Source: an uncultured Poribacteria bacterium (lineage in GTDB: Bacteria > Poribacteria > WGA-4E > WGA-3G). From it: a DNA stretch of 64,000 bases. Positions 4,691 through 28,373 of this stretch are shown piece by piece. Positions within the stretch are counted from its first letter, which is position 1, and the number at the start of each line of letters is the position of its first letter. Below the pieces are notes generated by a model, which saw nothing but the letters and a program-made list of their open reading frames with translations, did not search any database and was not told where the DNA came from. Both the position numbers and the translations under genes were made by a program. Location: positions 1 to 64,000 of the forward strand of contig OX639973.1 of NCBI GenBank assembly GCA_951828385.1, in the 5' to 3' direction.

Positions 4691-4791
4691 AGAGTTCCTT
4701 CTTGAGGGAGGTGTTTCTGACCCCGACTTTTCTTGCTGGCGAAGTTTCCTAACCTCGCCTACTGATGGCTGACCACCGAATTACAAGTTAT

Positions 4792-5050
4792 TTGGTTCGT
4801 AGTAGTGCGATTTTTGCGGCGTACTCGCCCAGATGCGAAGTGCATCGCGGTGTACTCACCCAAATGCGAAGTGCATTATCGCACGTCGCGCGACCCAAGA
4901 TTAGTGTAAATAGCATTTGGTTTGTAGTAGTGCGATTCATCGCACGTCGCGTATCCGAAGATTAGCGTAAAAAGCATTTGGTTCGTAGTAGTGCGATTCT
5001 GCGGCGTACTCGCCCAAATGCGATCTGCATTATCGCACGTCGCAGCCCAA
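4792..5050. repeat. Cluster of three GTAGTAGTGCGATT repeats
   Basis: Three near-copies of TTGGTTCGTAGTAGTGCGATT start at about 4791, 4918 and 4979. Two are followed by GCGGCGTACTCGCCCA and ATGCGAAGTGCATTATCGCAC variants. The middle copy forms GTGCGAT-TC-ATCGCAC. The same GTAGTAG/GTGCGAT material forms the core of the element at 49248-49378. No coding capacity. Confidence 0.65.
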
Positions 5051-5060
5051 ATCACTAAGC

Positions 5061-5780: not shown

Positions 5781-5974
5781 GTCCGGCGCGCCTGTCCTCC
5801 GATGCAAGTTTACAATAACACCGTTAGTATAACACATCACTAACCCCGTTTCAATTACTTCTGTAGGAGCAAGTGTTTTTGCTTGGGTATTTCTTGTCGC
5901 TCGCGATGCGCCATTCTCACCGCCATTTTGTCAAAGCCATTCAGTTCTCGGTTTTTTAGTCCAATTTCGCACTC

Positions 5975-6005
5975 CCGGGGTCCCCACCCGTTACTGGGAA
6001 GGGGG
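5975..6005. repeat. 31-base repeat with an inverted copy at 61894
   Basis: CCGGGGTCCCCACCCGTTAC and the 11 bases after it are the exact reverse complement of 61894-61924, in the leader of the second TnpB element. It directly abuts the first of two GTCCGGTAGG hairpins. The spacer 5781-6371 holds no convincing gene. Confidence 0.7.
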
Positions 6006-6080
6006 TCCGGTAGGTTCGGTTTCCTAACCGAACCGGCTTCTACCCCAGGTCCGGTAGGTTCGGTTTCCTAACCGAACCGG
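6005..6080. repeat. Two copies of a 32-base hairpin repeat
   Basis: A 32-base direct repeat starts at 6005 and 6049. Each copy contains GGTTCGGTT-TCCT-AACCGAACC (6013-6034 and 6057-6078), a perfect 9-bp stem preceded by GTAG. It is part of the GTAG...TCC hairpin family of this window. Confidence 0.75.
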
Positions 6081-6371
6081 ATACTCAGCGGCAACCTTGA
6101 AGCCTCCAAACCCCTCTTGAATCCAGTCGCGGTCCCCAAGTCCGGTAGGGTTTTGCGAGGGTATTTCTGCGGATTTCTTCGCGGTTTTGCGGTATCCTCA
6201 CCCAAATTTGGGTTCCCACACGCAAAAACCAAATTTTGCTTCGCAGTGAAAATGCTTTACATTTGCGCTCTGCATTCCCAACCGCACCGGAACTGAAAAA
6301 CAAAAATCAAACATTTAGGAAATCCAATAATTTATCTAAAACCAAATGCCTCTGCATTTTGCGATTACACG

Positions 6372-6400
6372 TTGACATTTTCTTCCATATACGGTAAAAT
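6372..6400 (+). promoter_or_regulatory. Sigma-70-type promoter ahead of the defence island
   Basis: TTGACA (6372-6377), a 17-base spacer and TAAAAT (6395-6400). The predicted start is near 6407, within the first bases of the leader repeat at 6403. The first ORF downstream is at 6527. Confidence 0.6.
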
Positions 6401-6402
6401 AC

Positions 6403-6491
6403 CCCAAGTTGCTACTAACAGATTTTGCCCACTTCGGAAAGGTTCTTTCATCTTTTTCCACACCCCAGAGGGGTAAAATATCTATAGAAAA
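6403..6491 (+). repeat. Leader repeat, copy 1
   Basis: About 89 bases running from CCCAAGTTGCTACTAACA through an ACCCC...GGGGTAA hairpin to ATCTATAGAAAA. Both ends and the hairpin recur at 20977-21064, just before the second PhyH gene; the middle is less conserved. It may be a transcribed leader or a small mobile repeat. Confidence 0.6.
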
Positions 6492-6526
6492 AAGTATATC
6501 AACGTCCCGCACTCCAGCGGAGTGCT

Positions 6527-6985
6527 ATGTTTATGAAAAGGTGGCAACTTGCGCTAATATTAATGGAATTTGAGTGGGACACAAACAAAGCCACAGTAAC
6601 ACACGATGAACTCCGTCCAGAGTACGATCTGAAAAAGTTGCGAGTGCGAAAATTCGGTCCTGCGCGTAAGCAGTTCGGTAACTTCGTCAAGTTAGCACCT
6701 GATGTCGCTGCAGTGTTTCCAGACGATCTTACCGTTAACAAAGCATTGCGATGCATGATCCAAGATTCCAAAGAAAACAGAAGGACACATTCTTACCGTT
6801 TACCAATGGAGACTTCAGACTCACCGTCTAAACAGCTTGATAATTCTATTGTCAAGTTAGAACCTGACGTTGCCGAAGCATTTCCAGACCCAGCGTCTGT
6901 GAATGAGGCACTCCGACACCTAATCCGAGACTGCAAAGAAAACGGTGAAGGATTCCTTGCTGCACAACATCGGAAAACGAAATAG
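6527..6985 (+). CDS. Antitoxin-like protein with an internal duplication
   Basis: 152 aa (140 if the ATG at 6563 is used). MEFEWDTNKA (residues 13-22) resembles the first residues of BrnT-type toxins, but the toxin body is missing. It is followed by ELRPEYDLKKL and two copies of a unit: NFVKLAPDVAAVFPDDLTVN and SIVKLEPDVAEAFPDPASVN, each ending in (K/E)ALR..I.(D/D)(S/C)KEN. The unit resembles short antitoxin-type sequences found beside toxin genes. No partner toxin follows; the next gene is the large ATPase at 7147. Whether this is a free antitoxin, a remnant, or part of the island is open. Confidence 0.6.
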   Translation: MFMKRWQLALILMEFEWDTNKATVTHDELRPEYDLKKLRVRKFGPARKQFGNFVKLAPDVAAVFPDDLTVNKALRCMIQDSKENRRTHSYRLPMETSDSPSKQLDNSIVKLEPDVAEAFPDPASVNEALRHLIRDCKENGEGFLAAQHRKTK

Positions 6986-7146
6986 CCCCATTCCTCCACA
7001 AAAACCTGTTGCTTTTTCGACTATTTATCGTATCATAAGTTATATGGAGAATCTCTTAATTTCTAAACACACAACTTCACCAGACTTGAAGAATCCTTCT
7101 TTCTCAGGCCACCAGGCATTCCCCTTGAAACCTTTAGAGAGGTATT

Positions 7147-10100
7147 ATGCGTAACGTCCCCTTGTCAGAAATTTTTCAGGTTAAAGGGCGTTTCCGGCGT
7201 TCGGTGCATCTCGAACGTGACTTCTACACAGAAAACGCCTTAGATGGATACGTCTTGACCGCGACTGCACGAGAGATGCTATCGCGCGTCATTTCTACAC
7301 TTGAAAATGAAACCACATCGAAAGCATGGTCCCTCACTGGTCCCTATGGTTCGGGGAAATCGGCATTCGCACTTTTCGCTGCGAAATTGCTCGGTGATCC
7401 TAATGCTCCTACAACCCAACAGGCTTTAGATCTGTTGAGACGAGGAGATACCAAGTTATATGAGAAGTTTAAGGACATAAACGGTAACGGAAAAAGATCA
7501 CTTTCGGGTTTCTGTCCGGTGCTTATCTCTGGTGAACGTGCCCCACTTTCACTCGGTCTTTTACGAGGTTTAGTACGTGGACTCACCGCTTCTAACGGTA
7601 CAATACCTTCTGCTTCATTGATTCAAGATATCCAAAATCTGTTGGAAACAGCAGAAAAAGGGACGCTGCTATCTGCCTCTGAAATTACTACTTTATTTGA
7701 GTCGGCAGCTCATGAAATCTGTGAATCTGGTGGCTCTGGTCTCCTTGTCGTAGTTGATGAACTCGGAAAATTCCTTGAGTATACTACACAACAACCGACA
7801 CAAGGGGATATGTTCATTCTTCAAACGCTTGCCGAATTCGCAGACAGAAGTGAAAATACCCCGCTCTTTCTGATGACGATTCTCCATCAGGCTTTTGAAC
7901 GCTACGCGGAACGCGCCGGTAAATCACAACAAGAAGAATGGGCAAAGGTTCAAGGTAGATTTGAAGATATCGCCTTTTCAGAGTCCACTGAACAGGTGCT
8001 CCGCTTAGTCGGGACAGCACTGGAGAAACATTCAGAAGTCGTCCCTAAAGACAACCTGAATACAGTAATTGACTTAGGACTTAAGCCGCACCAACTTAAG
8101 AAGAACGAATTTATCCCTCTATTAGAGAGTTGTCTACCGCTGCATCCGACGGTAGCACTCCTCATCGGTCCGATTTTCCGTCGATTCGCACAAAACGAAC
8201 GCTCCATTTTTGCTTTCCTCAGTGCAAGCGAGCCCTATGGACTACAAGATTTTTTGTCCCTTCAACATTACAATGGCAGCGTTCTGCCTACATTTTCGCT
8301 TGCTGATCTATACGACTATCTCAATGCTACACAGGGGAATCGTCTCTACACTTCCCAAACCGGTAAGAAGTGGGCAGAGATTGAATCCGCTATAAATCAA
8401 TTAGCAGACCCTTCTCCTATGGTAGTTCGACTTATTAAAACTATCGGGTTACTTGGTGTTGTTAACGAACCAATACCAAATCTGAAAGCCTCAGATGAAT
8501 TGCTCTATTATGCTCTTGATGATAACACTGAAGAATTCGCCACTGAATTTAAGAATGCGCTTTCGACTTTGAAAAGACGCTCAATAGTTATCCACCGTAG
8601 TTACAACAATGTTTACGCGCTTTGGGAAGGCAGCGATGTTGACATTGAGGCAAGACTCCGTGACGCAGCAGCGCGCGTTGACACAAAAGTCGCTCTCGCC
8701 ACTGATCTTTCGCGCTATATGCCAACACGTCCGCTCGTTGCACGGCGGCATCTTTTCCAAACCGGCACTTTGCGCTACTTTACTGTTCGGTATACCGATC
8801 TTGAGAATTTTGACGCAGATTTGGCAGAGCCACTCAATGATGCAGACGGACTTATCCTCTACGCACTGCCAGCAAGTGAGGAAGAGGTTACAAAACTCGT
8901 TAAAAAGGCAAACGATAGAGACACTGCGAATCGCGAAGAGGTGTTGATTGCAATCCCACGTACCATCGGTTTTCTACGAGATGCCGTCACACAACTCGCT
9001 TACTTACACTGGGTTGCTGAAAACACACCTGAACTTGAAGGCGATGCCGTCGCAAGGCGTGAACTCTCCGTACGGATGATAGAAGCAGAACGTGGCGTAA
9101 CTGATCGGTTAACAGAAATATTTGGTCAGAATAGCGAAGGTTCTTGTACATGGTATCACAAAGGACAACCCGCAGATATTAACTCTCCAAAAGCGAGAAA
9201 CACATATCTGTCAAGAATCTGTGACGTGGTATATCACAAAACACCTTTTATTCTCAATGAACTCATCAATCGCAGGAAAATTTCCGGTGCTGCAACAACC
9301 GCACGAAAAAAATTAATTCAAGCGATGCTTGAAAATGGAGAGAAGAAAAACCTCGGTATTACTGGCTATCCAGCTGAAATGAGTATCTACCGTTCCCTCT
9401 TGTGGAATACCGGAATACACCGAGAGGTTGAAGGCGTGTGGGGATTTCATCCACCAAATCCCGACGATAAAAATAAGACAAATCACGCGTGGAAAGCAAT
9501 TGAGAATTTTCTTGAAAAGTGTGAAGGGGAGCGACAATCTGTCGTCCAACTTTATGAACATCTGATGGCACCACCGATTGGTGTGCGAAGCGGTCCGCTG
9601 CCTATTCTTTTGTGTGCCGTGATGCACTATTATAAAACAGAAATTGCGCTCTATGAAAACGGATCCTTTATAGCAGATTGGTCAATGCCGGTTTTTGAGC
9701 GATTGCTTAAAGCACCGCAACAATTTGAACTGAAACGGTTCCGGATGGCAGGTATCCGTGCAGACCTATTTGCTCGACTTTTGCGGATGCTCAACCAACC
9801 CGTAGAAACCGAAAACCCAGATTTGCTGACGGTAGTTACGCCGCTGATGCGCTTCATTTCACAACTCCCGAAGTATACACTGGTAACACAAGAGTTAAGT
9901 GATAAAGCGATAAACCTTCGCAAAGCCGTACTGAATGCTCATGAACCCGACGAACTTCTCTTTAAACAGTTACCGGAAGCACTCGGTTTTCTGCCATTCG
10001 GGATAGAAACAACAAGCTCAAAAGCAGCTTACGACTTTTTTAACACACTGCAAGATGCCCTATCCGAGTTAGGGAATGCCTATGATATCCTGTTGAATTG

Positions 10101-10629
10101 GGTTGAACAGATGCTTGTAGAAGCGTTCAATTTGCCATCGACGAAGGAAGAACTCCGTGCAGAATTAGTCAGCAGAGCCGAACCCCTACAAGATACAGCG
10201 ATTGAGATCAAAGGATTTTTGACCCAAGTTTGTAGCGATGGACACGATTCAAGGAGTTGGCTTGAAGCAATAGCAACTAATCTTGCCAAAAAACCACCTG
10301 TATCGTGGTTTGAAATGGACAAAGCTCAATTTGAGTTTAACCTGTCTCTACTCGCGAGGAAGTTTCGCCACTTTGAAGCAGTCTCTTATGAAAAACTTAA
10401 GCACACTGAATTATCAAATGGGGAACCAATTCGGATTGGCATCACCAGACCGAGCCACCCTGAACAGGAGCAGGTTGTTACTTTTCCGTCAACAGCCGAG
10501 GCACAGCTTAACAAAATAGAACGCGAAATTGAGCAGGTGTTTGATAAATTTGACACCGATGGAAATTCTGAACTTCGTCTCGCAATTTTAGCGCGTATTT
10601 CACAAAAATTGATGCAAGAAGAGAAATAA
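7147..10629 (+). CDS. Large P-loop ATPase, BrxC/PglY-like (defence-associated)
   Basis: 1160 aa. Walker A is TGPYGSGKSAFALF at about residues 63-76. A Walker B-like stretch GLLVVVDELGKFLEY lies near residue 200, with FLMTILHQAFERYAER after it (sensor-like). The C-terminal 800 residues are helical and without a recognised motif. Size and layout resemble the big ATPases of BREX-type systems (BrxC, PglY); the resemblance is by eye only. It starts at an ATG after TTTAGAGAGGTATT and is followed after 78 bases by the PAPS-reductase gene, which has its own promoter. In type 4 BREX a BrxC homologue goes with a PAPS-reductase protein (BrxP), but PglZ and BrxL are absent here. Confidence 0.7.
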   Translation: MRNVPLSEIFQVKGRFRRSVHLERDFYTENALDGYVLTATAREMLSRVISTLENETTSKAWSLTGPYGSGKSAFALFAAKLLGDPNAPTTQQALDLLRRGDTKLYEKFKDINGNGKRSLSGFCPVLISGERAPLSLGLLRGLVRGLTASNGTIPSASLIQDIQNLLETAEKGTLLSASEITTLFESAAHEICESGGSGLLVVVDELGKFLEYTTQQPTQGDMFILQTLAEFADRSENTPLFLMTILHQAFERYAERAGKSQQEEWAKVQGRFEDIAFSESTEQVLRLVGTALEKHSEVVPKDNLNTVIDLGLKPHQLKKNEFIPLLESCLPLHPTVALLIGPIFRRFAQNERSIFAFLSASEPYGLQDFLSLQHYNGSVLPTFSLADLYDYLNATQGNRLYTSQTGKKWAEIESAINQLADPSPMVVRLIKTIGLLGVVNEPIPNLKASDELLYYALDDNTEEFATEFKNALSTLKRRSIVIHRSYNNVYALWEGSDVDIEARLRDAAARVDTKVALATDLSRYMPTRPLVARRHLFQTGTLRYFTVRYTDLENFDADLAEPLNDADGLILYALPASEEEVTKLVKKANDRDTANREEVLIAIPRTIGFLRDAVTQLAYLHWVAENTPELEGDAVARRELSVRMIEAERGVTDRLTEIFGQNSEGSCTWYHKGQPADINSPKARNTYLSRICDVVYHKTPFILNELINRRKISGAATTARKKLIQAMLENGEKKNLGITGYPAEMSIYRSLLWNTGIHREVEGVWGFHPPNPDDKNKTNHAWKAIENFLEKCEGERQSVVQLYEHLMAPPIGVRSGPLPILLCAVMHYYKTEIALYENGSFIADWSMPVFERLLKAPQQFELKRFRMAGIRADLFARLLRMLNQPVETENPDLLTVVTPLMRFISQLPKYTLVTQELSDKAINLRKAVLNAHEPDELLFKQLPEALGFLPFGIETTSSKAAYDFFNTLQDALSELGNAYDILLNWVEQMLVEAFNLPSTKEELRAELVSRAEPLQDTAIEIKGFLTQVCSDGHDSRSWLEAIATNLAKKPPVSWFEMDKAQFEFNLSLLARKFRHFEAVSYEKLKHTELSNGEPIRIGITRPSHPEQEQVVTFPSTAEAQLNKIEREIEQVFDKFDTDGNSELRLAILARISQKLMQEEK

Positions 10630-10638
10630 AGGCATAAT

Positions 10639-10667
10639 TTGACATTTTGGCAAATATATGTTATGCT
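10639..10667 (+). promoter_or_regulatory. Promoter of the PAPS-reductase gene
   Basis: TTGACA (10639-10644), a 17-base spacer and TATGCT (10662-10667), in the gap after the ATPase stop codon. This suggests the downstream genes can be transcribed separately from the ATPase. Confidence 0.55.
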
Positions 10668-10707
10668 TAAAATGTAGAAGTTAAAAACAACTATATTGGG
10701 AGAAAAC

Positions 10708-11544
10708 ATGAAACGAAATATCCGTCATCTGCTCGGTCTTTCTGGAGGAAAAGATAGTTCTGCGCTTGCTGTTTACATGCGGGATAGAGTGCCACAGATG
10801 GAATACTTTTTTACTGATACCGGAAAGGAATTACCAGAGACTTACGAGTTTTTGGATCGGTTAGAAGCGTTCCTCGGCAAACCAATTGCACGCCTCAATA
10901 TGGATCCCGATTCCCACAGTAACCGTGATTTTGATCACTGGTTAACACTTTATGGAGGTTTATTGCCATCGTCTCAAGTCCGTTGGTGCACGGTTAACCT
11001 TAAAATCAAACCGTTTGAGGATTACGTCGGTGAAGATAGCGCGTATAACTACGTTGCCATCCGCGCTGACGAAGATCGCGACGGTTATAAACCGCTAAAA
11101 ACCCCTTCTCTCCGCAATATTGAACCTAAATATCCGTTCAAAGATGATGGCATTACTAAAGAGGATGTGTACCGAATATTGGAGGAGAGCGGACTCGGTC
11201 TGCCCGACTATTATAAGTGGCGGACGCGCTCCGGTTGCTACTTCTGTTTTTTCCAACGCAAATCCGAATGGGTGGGACTATTAGAACGGCATCCCGACCT
11301 CTTTGAACTCGCCAAAGAATACGAGAAATTCGACCATGAGACAGGTGAACGGTTTACGTGGTGTCAAGGTGAAAGTTTGGAAGAGTTGTCGCAACCAGAA
11401 CGGATAGCACAGATTAAGGCGAACACCGAAAAAGCGATGGCATCCAAGAAAACAGCGAAACCGAATCGCCGTCTAATAGAAATCCTTACCGATGTCCATG
11501 ACGATGAGGATGATGAGGAACCGTGCTTGATTTGTCATAAGTGA
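10708..11544 (+). CDS. PAPS-reductase/DndC-like PP-loop sulfotransfer enzyme
   Basis: 278 aa from the ATG at 10708 (GGGAG five bases upstream). The PP-loop SGGKDSSALAVYM at residues 12-24 binds and activates ATP. A Cys in VRWCTVNLKIKPF, a C-x2-C in RSGCYFCFFQRKSEW and a C-terminal CLICHK could ligate an Fe-S cluster, as in DndC and related DNA-phosphorothioation enzymes. The WC..LKIKPF and GC.FC arrangement is typical of the DNA-modification branch more than of assimilatory CysH. The neighbours support this: a giant ATPase upstream and a phosphorothioate-reader-type nuclease 16 bases downstream. DndA, DndD and DndE are not in the window, so actual DNA sulfur modification is inference. Confidence 0.85.
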   Translation: MKRNIRHLLGLSGGKDSSALAVYMRDRVPQMEYFFTDTGKELPETYEFLDRLEAFLGKPIARLNMDPDSHSNRDFDHWLTLYGGLLPSSQVRWCTVNLKIKPFEDYVGEDSAYNYVAIRADEDRDGYKPLKTPSLRNIEPKYPFKDDGITKEDVYRILEESGLGLPDYYKWRTRSGCYFCFFQRKSEWVGLLERHPDLFELAKEYEKFDHETGERFTWCQGESLEELSQPERIAQIKANTEKAMASKKTAKPNRRLIEILTDVHDDEDDEEPCLICHK

Positions 11545-11560
11545 TACTTGGAAACTACCA

Positions 11561-12451
11561 ATGAATACGGAACAAATTCTTCAGAGATTTGAAACACTGC
11601 GACAGTGGGGGAGTGGTGGAGAAAGAGCACCACATAAACCGTTACTGGTCCTATATGCCATTGGAAAAATGTTGCGTGGTGAAGATAGACTCATTTCTTA
11701 CGCTGATGATATAGAGGAAAATCTTGAAAATCTACTGAGGGATTTTGGACCGAGACGCGATCGGTATAACCCGCATTTTCCATTTTGGCGACTGCAAAAT
11801 GATGAAATATGGGAGGTATCCAATGCCGACCAAATTAGACAAACTACCAGTGGGGACCCATACATAACTGATTTAAGGGAGCATAATGCTTCTGGTGGCT
11901 TTAATGAAAATATTGCTGAACAACTTCAAAACAACTCTGAACTAACATTTGAAATAGTCCTCAGCCTGTTAAATGCTCATTTTCCCCCTTCACTTCACGA
12001 AGACATTTTACAAGCTGTTGACATTGAACTTCCACTCCAAGCCTTTAATACGAGAACGCGGACATCTAACTTCCGAAAAAATGTTCTCAGGGCCTACGAA
12101 TATAAATGCGCTATCTGCGGCTTTGATGTGAAACTGGGAACCTCACCTATAGCGTTAGAAGCTTCTCATATCAAATGGCAAAAGGCTGGTGGACCCAATG
12201 AAGCAGTAAATGGTTTAGCTCTCTGCGTAATGCATCACAAATTATTTGACCGCGGTGCTTTTACATTGTCAAGGCAATGGCAAGTCTTGGTATCGGATGA
12301 GGCACACGGATCGGTAGGATTGCAGGAGTGGCTTAAGGATTTCCATGGGCAAACAATTAACTTTCCCCAAAGACGAACCTATTATCCAGAGATGGATTTC
12401 ATTGGCTGGCATGTTAGAGAGGTATTTCAAGGGGATTATCGCGAACTGTAA
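11561..12451 (+). CDS. Phosphorothioate-DNA-binding-type HNH restriction endonuclease
   Basis: 296 aa. The N-terminal half carries the pattern of the sulfur-binding domain of ScoMcrA-type enzymes: RAPHKPLLVLYAIG (about 23-36), LLRDFGPRR (about 59-67) and PFWRLQNDEIWEV. The C-terminal half is an HNH domain: CAICG (about 183), LEASHIKW with the first His, GGPNEAVNGLALC with Asn, and MHHKLFDRGAF with the last His. Family members cut DNA bearing phosphorothioate linkages. It lies 16 bases after the PAPS-reductase gene, so writer-like and reader-like genes are adjacent. A reader that cuts self-modified DNA would be harmful, so the two may act in a coupled or regulated way. Alternatively the nuclease may target foreign PT-DNA. 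Confidence 0.88.
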   Translation: MNTEQILQRFETLRQWGSGGERAPHKPLLVLYAIGKMLRGEDRLISYADDIEENLENLLRDFGPRRDRYNPHFPFWRLQNDEIWEVSNADQIRQTTSGDPYITDLREHNASGGFNENIAEQLQNNSELTFEIVLSLLNAHFPPSLHEDILQAVDIELPLQAFNTRTRTSNFRKNVLRAYEYKCAICGFDVKLGTSPIALEASHIKWQKAGGPNEAVNGLALCVMHHKLFDRGAFTLSRQWQVLVSDEAHGSVGLQEWLKDFHGQTINFPQRRTYYPEMDFIGWHVREVFQGDYREL

Positions 12452-12527: not shown

Positions 12528-14528
12528 ATGAGAAGTAGCGAACTCATACCAATAGAAAACGGATTAACACTCAATTTTCTAAAGATGGTTTTCAACAAAG
12601 ATACACTTTTTCTGCGAAAAACATTGTACTCAGACGAGTTGTACAACGAATATAAACTTAATCCAGATTTTTTCATTTACAGAATTAAGGATAACCTATA
12701 TATCTGGGAACTTCACCCAACCAACCAGCAACTGCCGCGTGTTTTTGAACAGGTAGAAATAACTATAAAAGAATACCCACGGATTTTCTCAAAAATTGCA
12801 GAACGCGCTATTGTGCAGTTTTTCAGAAACAATAATCGGCAAACCACATGGAATAAATACTCTTCGATTTGGGAAGTTGAACTAAAAAAGGAAAAACAAG
12901 AGAACTTTAATGCTTTATCTCTACAGCCAACTTTGAGGTTTTCTGTAATAGATCTCTATTCCACACTTTCCCAAAGGCAGGTTATTGCTTTAAGCATTAG
13001 AAGACGTATGAAACCTTTTTTTACCGAAAGTGAAGAGTCAATCATGAATCAACTTACAGACAACAGCGAATTGACTCGAAATTATAGGGGGGAAATCAAC
13101 GCCTCAACTCATAATCTGAATAAATACCTCGAGGCCACTGGACAAAAAAAAGATTATAGAAGTTACCTTGGAAAAAGGCAGACACGGCTCACCGAATTTG
13201 AATTTTTGAAGACAAGTGCCAAGAACTTTAATCACATTGCACCAGATATTTATATGCCAGATGGATTGAAAATCTCAAAGTTTTCTATTATTAACCCAAC
13301 GATTGCTTTTTTTAAAACTGCTAAAATTCCAAAACCTAAATACTGTTATTACAATGAAAGAACTATGGCCGGATATTACAATGAAGCTGTATCCAAATCA
13401 AAACCATATTCGTATGATCTCTTTAGCAACCAAAAAGTGAATATTCTTGTTGTGTCCCCTGACAAATATGATAGAAGTATCAGGGAGCATATCAAGACCT
13501 TGGATAGGAAATTGCAAACGCTGTTTCATTTAAAGGATGTTAAATTTCACCTAAAAATCATAAAGTCACCGGAAACCTACCTTGATGTACTAGATAAGAT
13601 AGATGCCAATAATTATAATTTGGCTATTATTGTAGTCTCCCAACAAGACAAGGAAATGTGCACCTCACAGTCTCCGTATTATTTGACCAAGGCCAAATTG
13701 TTAAATCAACGATTGCCAACTCAAGAATTAACAATAGAAGTTATCAGGAACAGCTCTGAAATTATAGATAATGATATTGCACTAAATATTTACTCCAAAC
13801 TTGGCGGTGTAGCGTGGACGATAGAGAAATCTGAAAAAAACATCTCTGAACTTGTTATTGGAATTGGATCCACAATTGATGATTGCGGAGAACGGATAAT
13901 CGGCTTTGCCAGTGTTTTTGATTACAATGGTACTTATCTTATTGGAGATTGTAGTCAATTAAGCACAATGAACAAATATACGGAAAACCTTGAGAACTAT
14001 TTAGTAAACGCTCTGACCCAGGCTTTCCATCAGAAAGGTTTATCAAAAGGAGACGAGGTTCGGCTTATATTCCATCTGTTTAAGGAAGCTGGTAAAAGAC
14101 ATGAATTAACAGCCATCGGCAATGCTCTCAGACGTTTTAAAGGATATGATGTTGAATATAGTCTGGTCCATCTCAGCACTTATGGGCACAACTATCGGAT
14201 TTTCAAAAATCAAGGCAGGAGCAGCCCGAATCGTGGGACTTTTGTGCAGTTGTCATCTCAGCAAGCACTGCTTCATTTGGGAGGTAATACCGTTGTACCC
14301 ATACAAGTACGTTTGGATAATAGATCCAAATACACAGATATATTTGAAATCACGCAACAGGTTCTTTATTTTGCTCACCTTTCTTACCGTAGCTTCATCC
14401 ATGGTGGTCAACCTGTTACTATAAAATACCCAAACCTAATGGCAAACATGGTTAGCGAACTTAAAAAAGTGCCTAATTGGGACCACTCAATTTTAAATAA
14501 ATTAAACGAAACCCTTTGGTTTATATAA
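12528..14528 (+). CDS. Catalytically inactive long-type prokaryotic Argonaute (MID-PIWI)
   Basis: 666 aa. The MID region has the guide-5'-phosphate pocket pattern YYLTKAKLLNQRLPTQ (about 383-398). The PIWI domain spans about 435-666: ELVIGIGSTID, RIIGFASVFDYNGTYLIGD, EVRLIFHLFKEAGKRHE (about 510-525), VEYSLVHLSTYGHNYRIF, and YFAHLSYRSFIHGGQPVTI. In slicing Argonautes the first PIWI strand ends in an Asp (GID) and the third catalytic Asp follows the I-h-R strand. Here these are IGIG and HLFK, so the DEDX tetrad is broken. Dead long Argonautes sense guide-matched DNA and trigger a partner effector. The partner is probably the membrane protein one base downstream. The start is an ATG after AAGGATGTAGAAAC. 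Confidence 0.88.
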   Translation: MRSSELIPIENGLTLNFLKMVFNKDTLFLRKTLYSDELYNEYKLNPDFFIYRIKDNLYIWELHPTNQQLPRVFEQVEITIKEYPRIFSKIAERAIVQFFRNNNRQTTWNKYSSIWEVELKKEKQENFNALSLQPTLRFSVIDLYSTLSQRQVIALSIRRRMKPFFTESEESIMNQLTDNSELTRNYRGEINASTHNLNKYLEATGQKKDYRSYLGKRQTRLTEFEFLKTSAKNFNHIAPDIYMPDGLKISKFSIINPTIAFFKTAKIPKPKYCYYNERTMAGYYNEAVSKSKPYSYDLFSNQKVNILVVSPDKYDRSIREHIKTLDRKLQTLFHLKDVKFHLKIIKSPETYLDVLDKIDANNYNLAIIVVSQQDKEMCTSQSPYYLTKAKLLNQRLPTQELTIEVIRNSSEIIDNDIALNIYSKLGGVAWTIEKSEKNISELVIGIGSTIDDCGERIIGFASVFDYNGTYLIGDCSQLSTMNKYTENLENYLVNALTQAFHQKGLSKGDEVRLIFHLFKEAGKRHELTAIGNALRRFKGYDVEYSLVHLSTYGHNYRIFKNQGRSSPNRGTFVQLSSQQALLHLGGNTVVPIQVRLDNRSKYTDIFEITQQVLYFAHLSYRSFIHGGQPVTIKYPNLMANMVSELKKVPNWDHSILNKLNETLWFI

Positions 14529-14529
14529 A

Positions 14530-15453
14530 ATGCTGTTAATTTACGAGTTAAAAAAGTTAAGGCATAGTCTTCTCAATAATTCTAACTTAAGCCCAAAGGA
14601 AAAGGCATTTTATCAATTTCTCGTGGATGAACCCTTGAATTATCCAATAAAGAATAACTCAGCTGAGATCGAACAGATTTGCCTTTCAGTTTTCAGTGGT
14701 GACCTCTTATCAAAGAAAGAACTAATTGCAACACAAAGAAAAAAGCAACCAATTCACGGGATGCATTATACGAAGAATTTAGTTGAACTGTCCGCTATGG
14801 GAATAGACGATGTTGAATTAGAGCGTAAAAACCTACAGTCATATTGTGAAAGGTGTTCAACACGGGAATTTTATGTTCTCAATAGTTTATTTCCAGACAT
14901 TTCTTCTAACCCGCCGCAACCCCAAGGGACAATTGACCAGATTGCATTACATCTTTATGAAAACAATTTCCCACAGGAGGGGTGGAAATCTCTTTTACTT
15001 AGGGGATTGTATGAAGTTTCGGATTTGATAGATTTCTACGTAATCGAACAAGGATATCAACGAGCAATGGATGATAATCCGATTGCCCATCGAACAAAGG
15101 ACATCATTTATGCGAGAAAGATTCTCGTTCAAATTGTTGCCAAAACTGAACGTCGTGCCAAACTTACTTTCAAGATAGTTAGTGTCCTCCTTGTGGCACC
15201 TACATATTACTGGCTAGCCTCTTTGATCATCAGAAATTGGGATAAGGCCGAACCAATTATGGCAGTCATTCAACCCCTCTTTTATCTTATAGGAGTCTTG
15301 TTTATTATATTTGTGGGGTTTATTCCAAATCGAATAAAATTTCTTAACTTCCTTATGGAAAACGTCATTGACTGGGTGTTTAGAAGAAAAGGGCTTAACC
15401 GGTTAGAGTTAAAAGAAACATTAGACCGGCTAACATATCAAAGTGAGCAATAA
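14530..15453 (+). CDS. Argonaute-associated two-helix membrane protein (putative effector)
   Basis: 307 aa. Its ATG begins one base after the Argonaute stop codon, so the two are almost certainly co-translated. About 210 soluble, mostly helical residues are followed by two hydrophobic segments: KIVSVLLVAPTYYWLASLII at about 213-232 and a segment around LFYLIGVLFIIFVGFIP at about 250-268. A charged tail of about 35 residues follows. No enzymatic motif is recognised. Membrane proteins encoded next to dead long-B Argonautes are known as effectors (BPAM-type) that damage the membrane and cause abortive infection. This gene fits that layout, but sequence homology to BPAM was not tested. Confidence 0.75.
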   Translation: MLLIYELKKLRHSLLNNSNLSPKEKAFYQFLVDEPLNYPIKNNSAEIEQICLSVFSGDLLSKKELIATQRKKQPIHGMHYTKNLVELSAMGIDDVELERKNLQSYCERCSTREFYVLNSLFPDISSNPPQPQGTIDQIALHLYENNFPQEGWKSLLLRGLYEVSDLIDFYVIEQGYQRAMDDNPIAHRTKDIIYARKILVQIVAKTERRAKLTFKIVSVLLVAPTYYWLASLIIRNWDKAEPIMAVIQPLFYLIGVLFIIFVGFIPNRIKFLNFLMENVIDWVFRRKGLNRLELKETLDRLTYQSEQ

Positions 15454-15793
15454 TTTACCCCTATCCAAATTTTCAACGAAATAAAGCGCGCACCACATGT
15501 CCAACTCGGCGAAACTCAGATATATCACCAATGGCGTACCTTTCGGTAAATATCCACGCTTTTTCATATCTCACGATAAAATATCTTATTTGCTTGGCCT
15601 TTTGTGAAATACCTAATATACATATAGTGTGTTATGTTAGTAATCTAACAAAAACCCAAAAAGACCCACAATTGATACCAAAATCAAGTAAGTTGGTAAT
15701 ATTTTTCGTAGAAAGATTTACCCCAAAAAATGCCTCTAAACTCATACAGTGACTGGATTTACGACCTATTTCAAAAAGTTACCAAAAAGCAAA

Positions 15794-15838
15794 AAAAGAT
15801 ACCATTTGGTATCTTTTCAGTCAGATTGGTATCTTTTT
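15794..15838 (+). terminator. Possible AT-rich terminator after the Argonaute operon
   Basis: AAAAGATACCA-TT-TGGTATCTTTT (15794-15817) is an 11-bp palindrome. A second TTGGTATCTTTTTT half-copy follows at 15827-15838. It lies in the 590-base spacer 15454-16045, which otherwise shows only the promoter at 15972. The low GC content makes termination uncertain; it could instead be an operator. Confidence 0.4.
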
Positions 15839-15971
15839 TAGGGCAAAATCACATCGGCATTTTCCAGCAGAAAACATCAAATGGGAGATAGCAATAATCC
15901 TGAAAATCCTATAATCTCATAAATTCCGGTTCAGACAACTGTTAACTGAAAGCTGAAAACTGACAATTTCG

Positions 15972-16001
15972 TTGACACACTTTTATTGGACGTGTTACTA
16001 T
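15972..16001 (+). promoter_or_regulatory. Promoter of the FRG-TPR gene
   Basis: TTGACA (15972-15977), an 18-base spacer and TACTAT (15996-16001). It lies 45 bases before the ATG at 16046. Confidence 0.55.
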
Positions 16002-16045
16002 TACATTTACAAAACTATCGTTATAAAAAAGAAAAGCGGACCAGC

Positions 16046-18064
16046 ATGTTAAACCAATCCAACTCCCAAAATGCCCTGTTAAGCAGCGTTCTGGAAATTA
16101 TCCGTAGGATAGAGGAAAAATCGGTGGATAGTCTCTATATATACCGTGGAGAACCCGCGTCCCATATATATCGTGAAGAACCTGCGCCCCATTTAAAAAT
16201 CTGTTCAAGTCTCTACCGTGAATATCAAGACATTGAAACGGATTCTTTTGATATAGAGACCCTTCAAATGGAGATTCTAACCGAGGCAAAGGATTACACG
16301 GATGAAACAAGCGATTTCAACATCCTTGTGGATATCCAACGTTATGGTGGGAAAACTAACCTCATTGAGTTTACAACTGACTATCTCATCGCCCTTTTCT
16401 TTGCCTGTGTTGATTCGTCTGATAAAGATGGTAGAGTTATCCTACAAAAAGTTGAGGAAATAAAAGATATAATCTATGATCCTTCGTCGAAACCACACAG
16501 TCATGTCAGTATCCAAAAGATTGTATTTATTAGACCTCCCAAGGGCTTTATTCAACCGAATGCATCTGATGTAATCACTATCCCACATAACCTCAAACAA
16601 TCTATACTAGATCACCTACAGAAGTCGCATGATATATCTGCTAGAACCATTTATGACGATCTCTATGGATTTGTCATGACTCACAACATCCATCATAGTG
16701 CCTATACTGAGTATCATAGGGGTCTAACTTGGCAACATAGAGGAATTGAAGCGAGTACATCTGAAGAAAAACAAAACGCCTTTGGAAAAGCTATTATGCA
16801 TTATAATGAAGCATTAGCATTGAAATCAAATGATGCCGTTATCTATTATAATCGCGGGGTGGTTCACTTTAATATAGACGAGTATGACAACGCTATTTCA
16901 GACTATACCAAAGCAATAAAATTCAAACCCGATTATGCAGATGCCTATTACCATCGCGGGCTTACTTACTTGAACAATGGTCAATATGATAAAGCTATTT
17001 CAGACTATACTAAAGCAATAGAACTCAAACCCGATTATGCAGATGCCTATTACCATCGCGGGCTTACTTACTTGAACAATGGTCAATATGATAAAGCTAT
17101 TTCAGACTATACTAAAGCAATAGAACTCAAACCCGATTATATAGATGCCTATCATCATCGCGGGCTTACTTACTCTAGCAAAGGTGAAACTGATTTGTCT
17201 ATTTCAGACTATAATACGGTAATAGATCTTGATCCTAATAATTCTGATGCCTACTTCAACCGAAGTTTTGCTTACCACGTCAAGGGTGAGATAGAATGTG
17301 CGAGAGCGGATTATGACAAATCAATGGAACTAAGACCAAATGATATCTTGGGGCAAGGAGAAATCAAAGGCTTTCTTTACTCAATGAAATTACGATTTGA
17401 TGAAGCAATATCAGGAGAACCTTATTATCGAATCTTCGCTGTTCCCCTGACATTAGTTTCAGATGCAGTTCGGACTCAGGAACTGGAAATTCGTAACATT
17501 TTACGGAACCCTCCAGACGTACGTAAGGGAGCTTTTGGCTTCATAGGTATTCCAGAAGTTTTACCAATTCCTGATGGAATTAGTGGTTTAAACTTTGGTG
17601 AAGGTGAAGTAATCTTATTGAACAATGGATTTCTTGAATTACGATGTCCATTGTCTGACAGTGTATTTCAATGGCAAATATCGACCTATGAAAAGTTTTG
17701 GGATTCAGAGTGGTTATACCCTTATGTCGTTTGTGAATTTCCAGTCACATTCTTACGTTTAGTAAAAGCAATCTATACAACATCTAATATTAATTTTCCG
17801 ATTATTGTTCAACAAGAATATCACAACCTCAACGGTTTTGTGCTGGTGGGCAGGCATCCAGGCAATCCGAAGTTTGGCATATTCGAGAACGAGCGACGTG
17901 TCTACGAGTCCGACTACCCGATTATTTCAAAACAGACTGTGTCTCCAAATTTTTCGCCTGATCAGATTGCTTATGACTTTGTAACAGACGTGTATACCCA
18001 TTTTGGGTTAACTACAACGTTAATGCCTGAACTGTTTGACGAAGAACATAATTTTGTTCTCTGA
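16046..18064 (+). CDS. FRG-domain protein with TPR repeats
   Basis: 672 aa from the ATG at 16046 (an upstream in-frame start at 15986 overlaps the promoter and is unlikely). Residues about 20-160 are an FRG domain: YIYRGEPASH, SSLYREYQD, LVDIQRYGGKTNLIEFTTDYLIALFFA. Residues about 215-440 hold five or six TPRs of the form AYYHRGLTYLNNGQYDKAIS DYTKAIELKPDY; two successive ones are identical at DNA level. The C-terminal 230 residues are not recognised. FRG domains occur in phage-defence and mobile-element proteins of unknown chemistry, and the TPRs suggest a protein-sensing arm. It stands between the Argonaute operon and an ATPase/TOPRIM pair on the same strand but has its own promoter. Confidence 0.82.
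   Translation: MLNQSNSQNALLSSVLEIIRRIEEKSVDSLYIYRGEPASHIYREEPAPHLKICSSLYREYQDIETDSFDIETLQMEILTEAKDYTDETSDFNILVDIQRYGGKTNLIEFTTDYLIALFFACVDSSDKDGRVILQKVEEIKDIIYDPSSKPHSHVSIQKIVFIRPPKGFIQPNASDVITIPHNLKQSILDHLQKSHDISARTIYDDLYGFVMTHNIHHSAYTEYHRGLTWQHRGIEASTSEEKQNAFGKAIMHYNEALALKSNDAVIYYNRGVVHFNIDEYDNAISDYTKAIKFKPDYADAYYHRGLTYLNNGQYDKAISDYTKAIELKPDYADAYYHRGLTYLNNGQYDKAISDYTKAIELKPDYIDAYHHRGLTYSSKGETDLSISDYNTVIDLDPNNSDAYFNRSFAYHVKGEIECARADYDKSMELRPNDILGQGEIKGFLYSMKLRFDEAISGEPYYRIFAVPLTLVSDAVRTQELEIRNILRNPPDVRKGAFGFIGIPEVLPIPDGISGLNFGEGEVILLNNGFLELRCPLSDSVFQWQISTYEKFWDSEWLYPYVVCEFPVTFLRLVKAIYTTSNINFPIIVQQEYHNLNGFVLVGRHPGNPKFGIFENERRVYESDYPIISKQTVSPNFSPDQIAYDFVTDVYTHFGLTTTLMPELFDEEHNFVL
16931..17134 (+). 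repeat. Two identical 102-bp tandem repeats inside the TPR region
   Basis: 16931-17032 and 17033-17134 are identical. Each encodes one 34-residue TPR. A third, partly diverged unit follows from 17135. The identity implies recent expansion or gene conversion. Confidence 0.9.
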
Positions 18065-18141
18065 ATTCTACACTCTCTGTGATAAAATAAAAAAGGCATA
18101 TTCAAATCAATGTTGGCATTCAATTTTATTTAAGGGATATT

Positions 18142-19353
18142 ATGATTATCACACATCTTAGTGCCACAAACTGGCGAAACTTTCGACAGATTGATGTTCC
18201 ACTTAGCGAACGTCAGTTTATTGTCGGTCCGAATGCCTCGGGCAAATCCAATTTTTTGGACATTTTTCGCTTTCTTCGAGATATTGCCAAAAATGAAAGG
18301 GGCGGGCTACAGGCAGCAGTTGCCAGTCGCGGGAGCGTAGCTATCATACAAAGTTTGGTGGTAGAGCAAGATGCGGAGGTTGCAATTGAAGTCCGCCTTG
18401 CCGACACGTCAGAATCTGCTGAGACTTGGAAATATGCGATAGGGTTTCGCCAAGCACCTCAAAGTCAAAGTTACAGTCATCGTTATTTTGCTTCACTCAC
18501 ACATGAGCGAGTGTGGAAAGACGGTAAACTGCTCATAGATAGACCTGATGCAGAAGACGAAAAGGATTTAGATCGACTCACCCGAACGTCTCTTGAAGAA
18601 ACCAATCATGATATACGAGAATTAGTGAACTTTTTTCATTCCATCACCTATCTTCATTTAGTCCCGCAACTGCTCCGTTTTCCCGATTTAATTACGGTAG
18701 ACTCTGTTGAAACCGATACCAATGCCCAACGTTCAGGCTCCAGATCCAGAAACAAGTCAACCCGAACTCAACTTGGTCACGGTTTACTTGAAAAGATTGC
18801 TAGTGTAGACGAAGATACCCGTTGTTCACGCATGAAAACGATTGAAGAAGCACTCAAGATTGCTATACCTCAACTTGAGCATTTGGAATTTAAACATGAT
18901 GAAGTGGGGCGTCCACATTTATCGGTACGCTGCTCCCATTGGCATCCAAGTTCACCTGCACAACACGAGGAACAATTTTCCGATGGGACGCTTCGGCTAC
19001 TGGGTCTTTTGTGGGCTCTCCTTGAAAGTGACTCATTACTCCTATTAGAAGAACCCGAACTTTCCTTACACGTGGGGATTGTATCACAACTTGCATATCT
19101 ACTCTTTGGAATGAAAGCGAGTAAAAATCAACAGGTATTAGTCAGTACTCATAGCGATGTTCTTCTCACGGAACCGGGTATTGATGGAACAGAAGTATTG
19201 ATGCTCACACCTACAAAAGTAGGAACAGAAGTGAAATTAGCCTCCGATATTGGCGATGTCCGGCATCTTCTTAAGGCAGGGTTCACAGCTGGTGAAGTGG
19301 TTTTTACAGACCCACAATCTGAGCATTCTGAAAGGTTAGGTTTATTGAAGTGA
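18142..19353 (+). CDS. ABC-type (AAA_21/OLD-like) ATPase of a two-gene defence pair
   Basis: 403 aa. The SMC/RecF-like N-terminus ITHLSATNWRNFRQIDVPL is followed by Walker A VGPNASGKSNFLDIF (about 28-42). The ABC signature is FSDGTLRLLGLLWAL (about 280), Walker B is LLLLEEPELSLH (about 300), and the switch His is in VLVSTHSDVLL. About 200 variable residues lie between the halves, as in OLD, Gabija and AriA ATPases. The start is an ATG with TTTAAGGGATATT upstream. The stop overlaps the GTG start of the next gene, so the two are coupled. The pairing of such an ATPase with a TOPRIM-like protein recalls PARIS (AriA/AriB), but AriB is a DUF4435 protein. Confidence 0.85.
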   Translation: MIITHLSATNWRNFRQIDVPLSERQFIVGPNASGKSNFLDIFRFLRDIAKNERGGLQAAVASRGSVAIIQSLVVEQDAEVAIEVRLADTSESAETWKYAIGFRQAPQSQSYSHRYFASLTHERVWKDGKLLIDRPDAEDEKDLDRLTRTSLEETNHDIRELVNFFHSITYLHLVPQLLRFPDLITVDSVETDTNAQRSGSRSRNKSTRTQLGHGLLEKIASVDEDTRCSRMKTIEEALKIAIPQLEHLEFKHDEVGRPHLSVRCSHWHPSSPAQHEEQFSDGTLRLLGLLWALLESDSLLLLEEPELSLHVGIVSQLAYLLFGMKASKNQQVLVSTHSDVLLTEPGIDGTEVLMLTPTKVGTEVKLASDIGDVRHLLKAGFTAGEVVFTDPQSEHSERLGLLK

Positions 19354-19988
19354 ATTTAGACCATGTCATCCTTGCCGCTGAAGATAGATTAAGCGAAGCT
19401 GTAGCAACTAAAATTCTTATGAACATGGGCTTTAAGATCGTTAGAAAACCTCAAAAACCAAGAAATTCCCGCCTTAAAGGAAACTCTTACCTGAAAAAAA
19501 GAGCACCTGAGTTCAACAGAAGTGCTACAGGACCTTATTATTTTTTTATGTTAACAGATTTAGATTCCCCTAAAATTTGTCCACCAGAACTAATCCAATC
19601 TTGGATTAATGCCCCTCTAAATCCTAGATTTTTCCTTCGTGTTGCGGTTATGGAAGTTGAATCTTGGGTGATGGCGGATCAGAGTGCCTTTGCTGAATTT
19701 CTAAGGGTACCAATACAAGAAGTCCCAACCAGAACAGACGAGATTCCTGATCCTAAAGCTTTACTACTTTCGCTTGCCCAAAAAAGCAAATCTGGGCGAC
19801 TGCGAAAAGATATGTTACCCAAAAATGGGAATAAAACTTCAAAAATAGGACCTGGATACAATAACCGCTTATGTGGATTTGTCCGAGATTATTGGGATAT
19901 GAACCGCGCTGTCTCCGTTTCGCCAAGTCTCAAACGAACTATAGATCGGCTTCAAAGTACAAAACCTATCCTTGGGACAGATCAATGA
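19350..19988 (+). CDS. DUF4276/TOPRIM-like partner of the ATPase
   Basis: 212 aa starting at GTG 19350 inside the previous stop (GTGA overlap), with AAAGGTTAGG upstream. Conserved points: AAEDRLSEAVATKIL (acidic E/D after the first strand), YYFFMLTDLDSPK (the DLD of a TOPRIM-like fold), VAVMEVESWVMADQSAFAEFL (E-E-W-D) and IPDPKALLLSLAQKS. These are typical of DUF4276-type TOPRIM proteins. The likely role is a nuclease or effector released or activated by the ATPase. The substrate is unknown. Confidence 0.72.
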   Translation: MNLDHVILAAEDRLSEAVATKILMNMGFKIVRKPQKPRNSRLKGNSYLKKRAPEFNRSATGPYYFFMLTDLDSPKICPPELIQSWINAPLNPRFFLRVAVMEVESWVMADQSAFAEFLRVPIQEVPTRTDEIPDPKALLLSLAQKSKSGRLRKDMLPKNGNKTSKIGPGYNNRLCGFVRDYWDMNRAVSVSPSLKRTIDRLQSTKPILGTDQ

Positions 19989-20030
19989 AAAACTGCTGGT
20001 ATCACAATTCTCTATATCCTTAAACCACAG

Positions 20031-20060
20031 TTGACATCCATTCGTCAGATATGATAACAT
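20031..20060 (+). promoter_or_regulatory. Likely promoter of the first PhyH gene
   Basis: TTGACA (20031-20036), an 18-base spacer and TAACAT (20055-20060). This leaves a leader of about 150 bases before the ATG at 20217. Confidence 0.45.
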
Positions 20061-20216
20061 TTTCATACATGTCGAAATCTTCGGTCTCCGAAAAAGAGAA
20101 GTCACCAGACTATGTGAGAACAACGCACGCTTTTTGATCTGACACAAGACGGCTTGGTCATCGGGAAGTTGAAGGTCTCCGACTGCTGACAGCCATAAAA
20201 AAAGGAGTTTCTACAG

Positions 20217-20951
20217 ATGACAGGTGAAGAAAAATTTCAGGTAGACCTTGAAGGCTACCTCGTCATAAAGAACGTCTTGACCGACGACGAAGTCGCCGAG
20301 ATGAACGAGATTATTGATAGCGGAAACCGGCAAGGACCGCCGAGTCTCTGGGGTGAACCGTTCAAACGGCTTATCGACCATCCGACAATCCTCCCTTACC
20401 TCATCGAACTGTTGGGAGCGCATGTCCGACTGGATCACGATTACTCTCTCTTTATGCAGAAAGGGCAAGGTCGTGGCGGATTACACGGCGGCGAGGACGG
20501 TGGACGCGCCGGTGGACACGTCGGCGATCACTGGTATAAATACCGAGACGGACACATCCGAAATGGACTCTCCGTGATGACATACAATCTGGCGGACGCA
20601 CCCGCAGGCGCAGGCGGATTCGCCTGTATCCCGGCGAGCCATAAGAGCAACTTCGCACCGGAAATCCCATCGGAAGTACGCCGATTTGAACGTCCGGCAC
20701 ACTATGTCGTCCAACCGCCCGTTGAAGCGGGGGATGTGCTGTTTTTCACGGAAGCACTCATTCACGGCACGATGCCGTGGACAGCCGATCACGAACGCCG
20801 GTCATTGCTCTACAAATACAGTCCCGGACACTCCGCGTGGTCACAGAATTATTACGACCTCAGCAAATACGACGGGTTAACAGAGCAACAAAAACGGATG
20901 CTAATGCCACCCTCCATCGGCAGGCGTCCCCGCGTCATTGACCCAGATTGA
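20217..20951 (+). CDS. Phytanoyl-CoA dioxygenase (PhyH) family protein, tandem copy 1
   Basis: 244 aa. The PhyH double-stranded beta-helix pattern is clear: FQVDLEGYLVIKNVLTDDEV, GEPFKRLIDHPTILPYLIELLG, NLADAPAGAGGFACIPASHKSNF and VEAGDVLFFTEALIHGTMPW. The last segment contains the distal iron-ligand His. The proximal ligands of Fe(II)/2-oxoglutarate enzymes are H-x-D/E. Here the corresponding region reads GGLHGGEDGG, H-x-x-E, so metal ligation is not certain. An AAAAGGAG site precedes the ATG. The gene at 21083 is about four-fifths identical by eye and has exactly the same length. Confidence 0.85.
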   Translation: MTGEEKFQVDLEGYLVIKNVLTDDEVAEMNEIIDSGNRQGPPSLWGEPFKRLIDHPTILPYLIELLGAHVRLDHDYSLFMQKGQGRGGLHGGEDGGRAGGHVGDHWYKYRDGHIRNGLSVMTYNLADAPAGAGGFACIPASHKSNFAPEIPSEVRRFERPAHYVVQPPVEAGDVLFFTEALIHGTMPWTADHERRSLLYKYSPGHSAWSQNYYDLSKYDGLTEQQKRMLMPPSIGRRPRVIDPD

Positions 20952-21082: not shown

Positions 21083-21817
21083 ATGACAGGTGAAGAGAAA
21101 TTTCAGGTAGACCTTGAAGGCTACCTCGTCATAAAGAATGTCTTGACCGAAGATGAAGTTGCCGAGATGAACGACATCATTGATAACAGCGAACGCCAAG
21201 GCCCGCCAAGCCTCTGGGGTGAACCTTTTAAGAGACTGATTGATCATCCGACAATCCTGCCGTATCTCATTGATCTCTTGGGTCCGCATGTCCGACTCGA
21301 CCACGACTATGCCATCTTTATGGAAGAAGGACAGAAAGGTGGTAGATTGCACGGCGGCGAAGATGGTGGCGGTCCCGGTGGACCTGAAGGCGATCACTGG
21401 TACAAATATCGTGACGGCATCATGCGCAACGGTTTATGTGTGATGACCTACAACTTAGCGGACGCACCCGAAGGCGCGGGTGGATTCGCCTGTATTCCCG
21501 GAAGCCATAAGAGCAATTTCTTGCGAGAAATTCCGTCAGATGTACGGCAATTTGAACGTCCGACACATTACGTTGCGCAACCGCCCGTTGAAGCCGGAGA
21601 TGTGTTATTCTTCACCGAAGCACTCGTTCACGGGACGATGCCGTGGACAGCAAAACATCGACGGCGTGCGCTGCTCTATAAATACAGTCCCGGACACTCC
21701 GCATGGGCAGGGCATTATTACGACCTCAGCAAATACGGCGAGTTGACAGAACAACAGAAACGGATGTTGTTGCCGCCCTCTATTGGGAGTCGTCCCCGCG
21801 TCGTTGATGCGGATTAA
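21083..21817 (+). CDS. Phytanoyl-CoA dioxygenase (PhyH) family protein, tandem copy 2
   Basis: 244 aa, a close duplicate of the gene at 20217. Differences are concentrated in the metal-site loop (MEEGQKGGRLHGGEDGGGPG) and in surface positions. The distal His segment ALVHGTMPW and the IPGSHKSNF loop are kept. The ATG follows AAAAGGAACTGCAACC. Only 11 bases separate its stop from the ankyrin gene, so these two probably form one transcript. The duplication carries the leader repeat in front of this copy only. Confidence 0.85.
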   Translation: MTGEEKFQVDLEGYLVIKNVLTEDEVAEMNDIIDNSERQGPPSLWGEPFKRLIDHPTILPYLIDLLGPHVRLDHDYAIFMEEGQKGGRLHGGEDGGGPGGPEGDHWYKYRDGIMRNGLCVMTYNLADAPEGAGGFACIPGSHKSNFLREIPSDVRQFERPTHYVAQPPVEAGDVLFFTEALVHGTMPWTAKHRRRALLYKYSPGHSAWAGHYYDLSKYGELTEQQKRMLLPPSIGSRPRVVDAD

Positions 21818-28132: not shown

Positions 28133-28373
28133 AACTCTGGTGAAGCCTATAAATAGGTGAACATCTTCGTAGCATAAACTTCCAGTTTGTGTCTTCGTAG
28201 CATAAACTTCCAGTTTGTGTCTTCGTAGCATAAACCTCCAGTTTGTGTCTTCGTAGCATAAACTTCCAGTTTGTGTCTTCGTAGCATAAACCTCCAGTTT
28301 GTGTCTTCGTAGCATAAACCTCCAGTTTGTGTTTCCAGTGTGAATGTCCAATTGATTCTAAGATCTACCATAA
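28133..28373. mobile_element. MITE-like repeat, copy B, with an internal 28-bp array
   Basis: The outer parts match copy A at 1331-1460. Inside, the hairpin segment has expanded to six tandem 28-bp units (28165-28332) of the form CTTCGTAGCATAAACYTCCAGTTTGTGT. They vary only at one C/T position. Because 28 is not a multiple of 3, all frames show repetitive pseudo-ORFs; it is non-coding. It occupies the promoter region between the divergent RDD and spoIIM genes. Confidence 0.7.

Follow-up and report, generated by a model that had tools for sequence, protein, structure and literature searches.

The gene analyzed here lies in a 64,000-nucleotide stretch of DNA (hereafter the window; contig OX639973.1, positions 1 to 64,000), part of a 6.66-Mb single-contig genome of an uncultured member of Candidatus Poribacteria. 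It encodes a protein with an N-terminal FRG region, an array of TPR units and an unannotated C-terminal domain, designated CTD, and lies in a defence island, followed by two genes of the HEC-01 type (Table 1). The Pfam FRG family (PF08867) matches residues 40-128 (E 3.7e-9; 37.8 bits, the cut-off being 25) and TPR_1 matches six stretches (E 2.1e-48), confirming the fusion of FRG to TPRs proposed in the initial annotation. Its remark that the C-terminal 230 or so residues resemble nothing recognizable was likewise borne out, as the 238 residues of the CTD matched nothing in Pfam at E<=10 or in NCBIfam at E<=1. The gene is also present in a near relative (genome G033), and among named loci the closest relative found lies on JAJECK010000155.1, a MAG contig of Candidatus Poribacteria (here L035), which was treated as one contig with G074:C121, from another genus of the same family, because the match coordinates coincide.

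Table 1. Coordinates of features at and near the FRG-TPR-CTD gene (positions in the window).
Feature	Position	Strand	Remarks
SspC-like gene	7147..10629	+	defence island
SspD-like gene	10696..11544	+	defence island
HNH endonuclease	11561..12451	+	defence island
Prokaryotic Argonaute	12528..14528	+	Piwi domain; defence island
Sigma-70-like promoter match	15972..16001	+	TTGACA-18-TACTAT, TG before second hexamer; upstream of ATG, overlaps TTG
FRG-TPR-CTD protein gene	16046..18064	+	ATG to stop, 672 aa
FRG region	16046..16750	+	Pfam match within
27-bp tandem duplication	16137..16192	+	within FRG region; absent from G033 and L035
TPR array, six units	16751..17347	+	T2 16883-16984, T3 16985-17086, T4 17087-17188, T5 17189-17290
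Tandemly duplicated 102-bp segment	16923..17140	+	116-bp exact run at shift 102
CTD, unannotated 238-aa domain	17348..18061	+	matched in 19/84 genomes of the phylum, some matches being fragments
HEC-01A, AAA_21 ATPase	18142..19353	+	first gene downstream, at 77 bp; order shared by G033 and L035
HEC-01B	19350..19988	+	DUF4276 match below Pfam cut-off; 4-bp overlap with HEC-01A

A mechanical ORF call opens the gene upstream, at TTG 15986. The ATG at 16046 is the likely true start, judging from the sequence, since G033 also has an ATG at the matching position and a promoter-like site covers the upstream TTG (a match to consensus only, the region 15400-20250 holding 20 such matches against 13.6 expected).

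Within the TPR array, positions 16923-17038 are identical to 17025-17140, and TRF reports a period of 102 with 3.2 copies and 91% matches over 16883-17213. The identity over 102 bp described in the initial annotation is therefore real, and the exact run is longer, at 116 bp, though no two TPR units are wholly identical because the identical 102-mer crosses a repeat boundary; in TPR register there are 5 differences in 102 sites between T2 and T3, and 9 in 102 between T3 and T4. T3 is a hybrid, its 5' half being that of T4 and its 3' half that of T2, as unequal crossing-over would produce, and a single 102-bp tandem duplication leaves this pattern. Between the window and G033, 29 of 714 sites differ in the CTD (4.1%) and 31 of 687 in the stretch from FRG to T1 (4.5%). 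If the duplication predated the split from G033, the probability of zero changes in 116 bp would be 0.009 at the CTD rate or 0.005 at the FRG-T1 rate, and since an unchanged run would be unlikely under so early an origin, the gain of the 102-bp repeat is probably recent, with gene conversion as an alternative source of the identity. The run is also more than chance, as it is the longest among the 47 distinct FRG ORFs with at least three detected TPRs that were compared (from loci chosen and fetched by hand), where the longest exact run at shift 102 has a median of 20 bp and reaches at least 55 bp in seven, the window included.

The wider claim of repeat gain held only in part, for a recent tandem duplication and not for a net expansion of the array, which is unsupported because the orthologue in L035 has an equal number of TPRs (five in each by one HMM, six in each by eye). 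The G033 array is interrupted by exactly 100 N, as an assembly gap between near-identical repeats would leave, and the comparison between orthologues therefore rests on L035. The TPR number is thus constant between window and L035 and varies widely between paralogues, from 0 to 33 detected units among the FRG ORFs fetched, some counts differing between two detection runs. Repeat turnover in L035 too is suggested by its T3 and T4, which resemble each other (25/102 differences) more than they do T2-T4 of the window (33 to 35/102); against this, T2 of L035 is nearer to T2-T4 of the window (21 to 24/102) than to its own units (37 to 47/102).

FRG is matched in 37 of the 38 genomes of the genus, some of the matches being weak. 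The FRG region of the window matches a PADLOC PDC-S15 model at E 1.5e-17, and nine PDC-S15 models fall below 1e-5. One study places Frg in the ADP-ribosyltransferase (ART) superfamily and proposes it as a possible NADase (PMC9503650). An AF2 model of the FRG region from a 3-row alignment had a pLDDT of 42.9 and gave no Foldseek match at E<=10; rows for the AF2 alignments came from the window, L035 and L100 only. No relative was found in viral collections with a single-protein FRG query (a pattern-based search of limited reach), and an FRG alignment query gave one match, L100 (IMG/VR UViG_2740892559). This record and the poribacterial contig G002:C177 are both 78,675 long and carry an identical FRG protein. 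L100 is not an independent case, being of the same size as G002:C177 and encoding the same protein as L148, and UViG_2740892559 may be a misfiled chromosomal piece. Plasmids yielded seven records with partial FRG matches only, which were left out.

The CTD is well conserved, with 73 of 245 columns invariant in seven sequences. The best PDB sequence match had an E of 0.37 when the single protein was the query; a 7-row profile gave 0.021, covering 34 positions. The AF2 model (2-row alignment, pLDDT 49.3) had a best Foldseek E of 0.2, and hence no match at E<=0.001. A search for CTD relatives in plasmids and phages gave no match at E<=0.01, and pattern-based searches of limited reach in viral collections found none. 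Two types of partner accompany the domain: FRG-TPR in the window, G033 and L035, and the Schlafen (SLFN) AlbA_2 domain, which is fused to the CTD in all five long CTD proteins tested (L024, L037, L166, L171, L172). At five further loci (L038, L168, L169, L170, L174) the CTD has a frame to itself, preceded by a frame of 144-213 aa with a 4-bp overlap, and the preceding frame is AlbA_2 in 5/5 tested. Eukaryotic relatives of AlbA_2 are RNases. Schlafen RNases are described as defence effectors in PMC12839542. In L024, the stretch 1929-12186 contains the AlbA_2-CTD gene together with genes for a type ISP restriction-methylation enzyme and Zorya ZorA.

A faint likeness suggests that the CTD may be akin to the C-termini of AlbA_2 or TIR proteins from Rhizobium, Burkholderia, Planococcus and other sources. 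Compared by hhalign with the A5 family, the domain at the C-terminus of other AlbA_2 proteins, the CTD reached probabilities of 0.7-1.4% between profiles and 0.2-0.5% against single sequences. A forced alignment is collinear over the full length, at a probability of about 1% or less. Of 150 column-shuffled controls, none reached the global score and three the local score, and the reversed control had a local score of 18.9 against 20.6. One of ten records, H9 (a Legionella plasmid), was left out of these remote-homology alignments, and the A5 profile had no match at E<=0.1 in the 84 poribacterial genomes. A Planococcus plasmid protein (L187, 940-2103) joins TIR to a domain related (tblastn E 1e-5) to the Rhizobium/Burkholderia domain that follows AlbA_2.

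FRG proteins of the genus end in TaqI_C (L022, L023, L142, L144, L149), DUF4268 (L100), DUF2806 (L027, where no TPR was detected), the CTD or a shorter tail. TaqI_C is a DNA specificity domain. The TaqI_C tail is matched in 27 of the 38 genomes of the genus (E<=1e-40), with 37 matches in total, of which 27 were examined and ten left out; two restriction enzymes matching the tail at 25% were excluded from the count. The N-terminus of 26 TPR-TaqI_C genes is FRG in five, TIR in 11 and neither, as far as detected, in ten, shares that are biased because 40 regions were hand-picked from FRG matches and the five FRG-TPR-TaqI_C genes come from loci fetched for their FRG. A 27th gene (L143) likewise had neither FRG nor TIR detected. 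TIR was assigned by BLAST, and Pfam confirmed TIR_2 on 4/4 N-termini tested. L237, counted under neither, opens in an N gap; as a TIR-TPR frame occurs in that stretch, the gene could belong with the TIR group. TIR is an established NAD-consuming effector domain. Since FRG and TIR swap in one place, and several C-termini follow FRG, these patterns suggest that the N-terminal domains are effectors and the C-terminal domains recognition parts. The proposal in the initial annotation that the activity might reside in the C-terminus is contradicted in tendency, and on this comparison of architectures the C-terminus is probably not the active part.

Both genes downstream were identified by PADLOC (HEC-01A, E 2.3e-125; HEC-01B, E 1.1e-54), and the three-gene cassette is kept in the window, G033 and L035. 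Identity between window and L035 is 65% for FRG, 73% for the CTD, 74% for HEC-01A and 60% for HEC-01B, and the flank downstream of the cassette differs in L035. Across 57 distinct FRG ORFs with enough downstream sequence, a Walker-A ATPase gene was found within 80 bp downstream in 6/6 of those with TaqI_C or CTD and in 0/51 of the others. The Fisher P of 3e-8 overstates this association, since the genes are related rather than independent and the loci were hand-picked. An ORF starting within 200 bp was called an ATPase if its first 80 residues contained G-x-N-x-x-G-K-[ST], so that other ATPases would be missed. Dropped from the count were L148 (a duplicate of L100), L149 and L159 (too little downstream sequence) and L036, the G033 locus, because the gap splits the gene.

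In the TaqI_C branch the ATPase gene overlaps the preceding gene by 4-7 bp, and the ATPases are SMC_N by Pfam in 4/4 tested. TIR-TPR-TaqI_C genes have an ATPase directly downstream in nine of 11 cases (the exceptions being L227 and L228), and one of 11 TPR-TaqI_C genes is without such an ATPase (L235, where the contig stops about 440 bp past the gene). At L022, L023, L142, L144, L149 and L219-L238, TPR-TaqI_C proteins are mostly followed by an overlapping SMC-like ATPase gene. Of five loci, three (L023, L142, L144) have a gene for an Eco57I-type restriction enzyme immediately upstream and two (L022, L149) have other genes there; the enzyme has a TaqI_C domain of its own in L023 and L142, and none is reported for L144.

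We propose, with moderate confidence, that the gene encodes an anti-phage protein of three modules, an FRG effector, a TPR coupler and a CTD for recognition, with HEC-01AB as its partner. The domains, the gene order, the three-gene cassette in three genomes and the swap patterns among relatives are direct observations; the steps that follow, like the anti-phage role itself, are inferred. The N-terminal FRG, of the ART superfamily according to the literature, would be the toxic effector, presumably acting by catalysis. The TPR array would hold FRG and couple it to the CTD, which would recognize an infection cue or dock a partner, and the SMC/OLD-like ATPase HEC-01A, together with HEC-01B, would gate or relay the signal.

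Conceivably the FRG-TPR-CTD gene and HEC-01AB are mere neighbours in a defence island, HEC-01AB being a complete two-gene system. HEC-01A does not need the FRG-TPR-CTD gene, because at 25 other loci of the genus (one, L096, begins inside the gene) a HEC-01A relative of 53-61% identity occurs with no FRG or CTD match within about 1.5 kb on either side, and an at least partial HEC-01B match is present at 24 of them. Simple adjacency is nonetheless doubtful for the window, given that the three genomes agree in gene order, that the genes have diverged together, that L035 has another flank downstream, that an ATPase gene comes straight after the FRG genes of the second branch too, whose C-terminus is another one, and that the plus strand between the FRG-TPR-CTD gene and the HEC-01 genes holds no terminator-like site. 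Another reading takes the window FRG for a degenerate, non-catalytic domain with a regulatory role. In 60 aligned poribacterial FRG sequences, R34, G35, T104, L106 and F109 are identical throughout, and the [FY]RG arginine and a T-x-L-[IL]-[DE]-F-T stretch are conserved; the histidine preceding that stretch (H in 52/60) and its aspartate (D in 47/60) are R99 and E108 in the window. As two well-conserved residues are replaced, activity could have been lost or changed. Outright degeneration seems unlikely, however, since the protein retains all five invariant residues as well as Q157 and has both substitutions in common with G033, L035 and L126, so that these are inherited and conserved.

The roles could also be reversed, the CTD being the effector (for example a nuclease) and FRG-TPR the sensor. 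That the CTD is unannotated and well conserved, and forms its own open frame in several loci, would fit such a role, but we regard it as improbable: FRG alternates with TIR on one scaffold, the CTD also partners AlbA_2, in five cases as a separate frame overlapping the AlbA_2 gene by 4 bp, and its place is taken elsewhere by TaqI_C, a specificity domain. Finally, the sponge host might be the target of the protein. No other repeat domain is as frequent as the TPR in poribacterial single-cell genomes, and proteins with such repeats have been postulated to play a host-related role (PMC3909097). The associations with TaqI_C, AlbA_2 and an ATPase, and the defence-like character of the island, make a host-interaction protein very unlikely here.

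On our preferred reading of an FRG effector joined by TPRs to a recognition domain, the window protein has relatives among several known systems and differs from each. Like Frg effectors it matches PF08867 above the cut-off as well as the PDC-S15 models; unlike them, it is fused to TPRs and an unannotated CTD and has two well-conserved positions changed. The two downstream genes are adjacent and match both HEC-01 components, with the FRG-TPR-CTD gene added upstream in the window, G033 and L035 but not at the 25 other loci examined. Poribacterial members of the bacterial Schlafen group share the CTD with the window protein and have AlbA_2 as effector where it has FRG-TPR. The TIR-TPR-TaqI_C proteins of the genus have the same plan of N-terminal effector, TPR array, C-terminal module and downstream ATPase gene, with TIR in place of FRG, TaqI_C in place of the CTD and an SMC_N-like ATPase in place of HEC-01A.

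Tentatively, and with rather less assurance than for the window gene, these proteins could represent a mix-and-match form of immunity in Poribacteria resembling that of NLRs, in which an NAD-consuming effector, FRG or TIR, would be joined by TPRs to a TaqI_C or CTD module for recognition or as a decoy, with the ATPase in an overlapping or the next gene. There would be no built-in NTPase, and the TPR array would gain and lose units by tandem duplication. Because an Eco57I-type enzyme lies upstream in three of five loci, twice with its own TaqI_C, the TaqI_C-branch protein could guard that enzyme or act as a decoy for phage anti-restriction proteins. Among the matches listed in the literature searched, with most subscription papers outside its scope, no paper on FRG-TPR or TIR-TPR-TaqI_C architectures was found. 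If the proposal is true, it would describe a bacterial immune family that resembles eukaryotic NLRs in its construction but has its ATPase encoded by a gene apart; FRG and TIR would be interchangeable effectors in it, and type II restriction specificity domains would be reused for recognition. FRG, on which there is little experimental work in the searchable literature, would gain a concrete and testable setting, and the repeats would suggest how TPR arrays change in sponge-associated bacteria. The part deserving attention is the pattern of FRG or TIR, TPRs, exchangeable module and ATPase.

Several other features of the window were recorded. Directly after the Argonaute gene is a gene for a 307-aa protein (14530-15453) with hydrophobic stretches by eye and no Pfam match above cut-off, PADLOC match or NCBIfam match; it is perhaps a membrane partner of Argonaute. 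In the 19-kb stretch of G033 (L036), SspD appears as two short pieces only, and searches for SspC, Argonaute and the 307-aa protein gave no match. Six tandem copies of a 28-bp unit occur at 28164-28332, upstream of an ORF at 28447. Two tandem paralogous genes of 244 aa (20217-20951 and 21083-21817), matched by three copies in G033, look by eye like phytanoyl-CoA dioxygenases.
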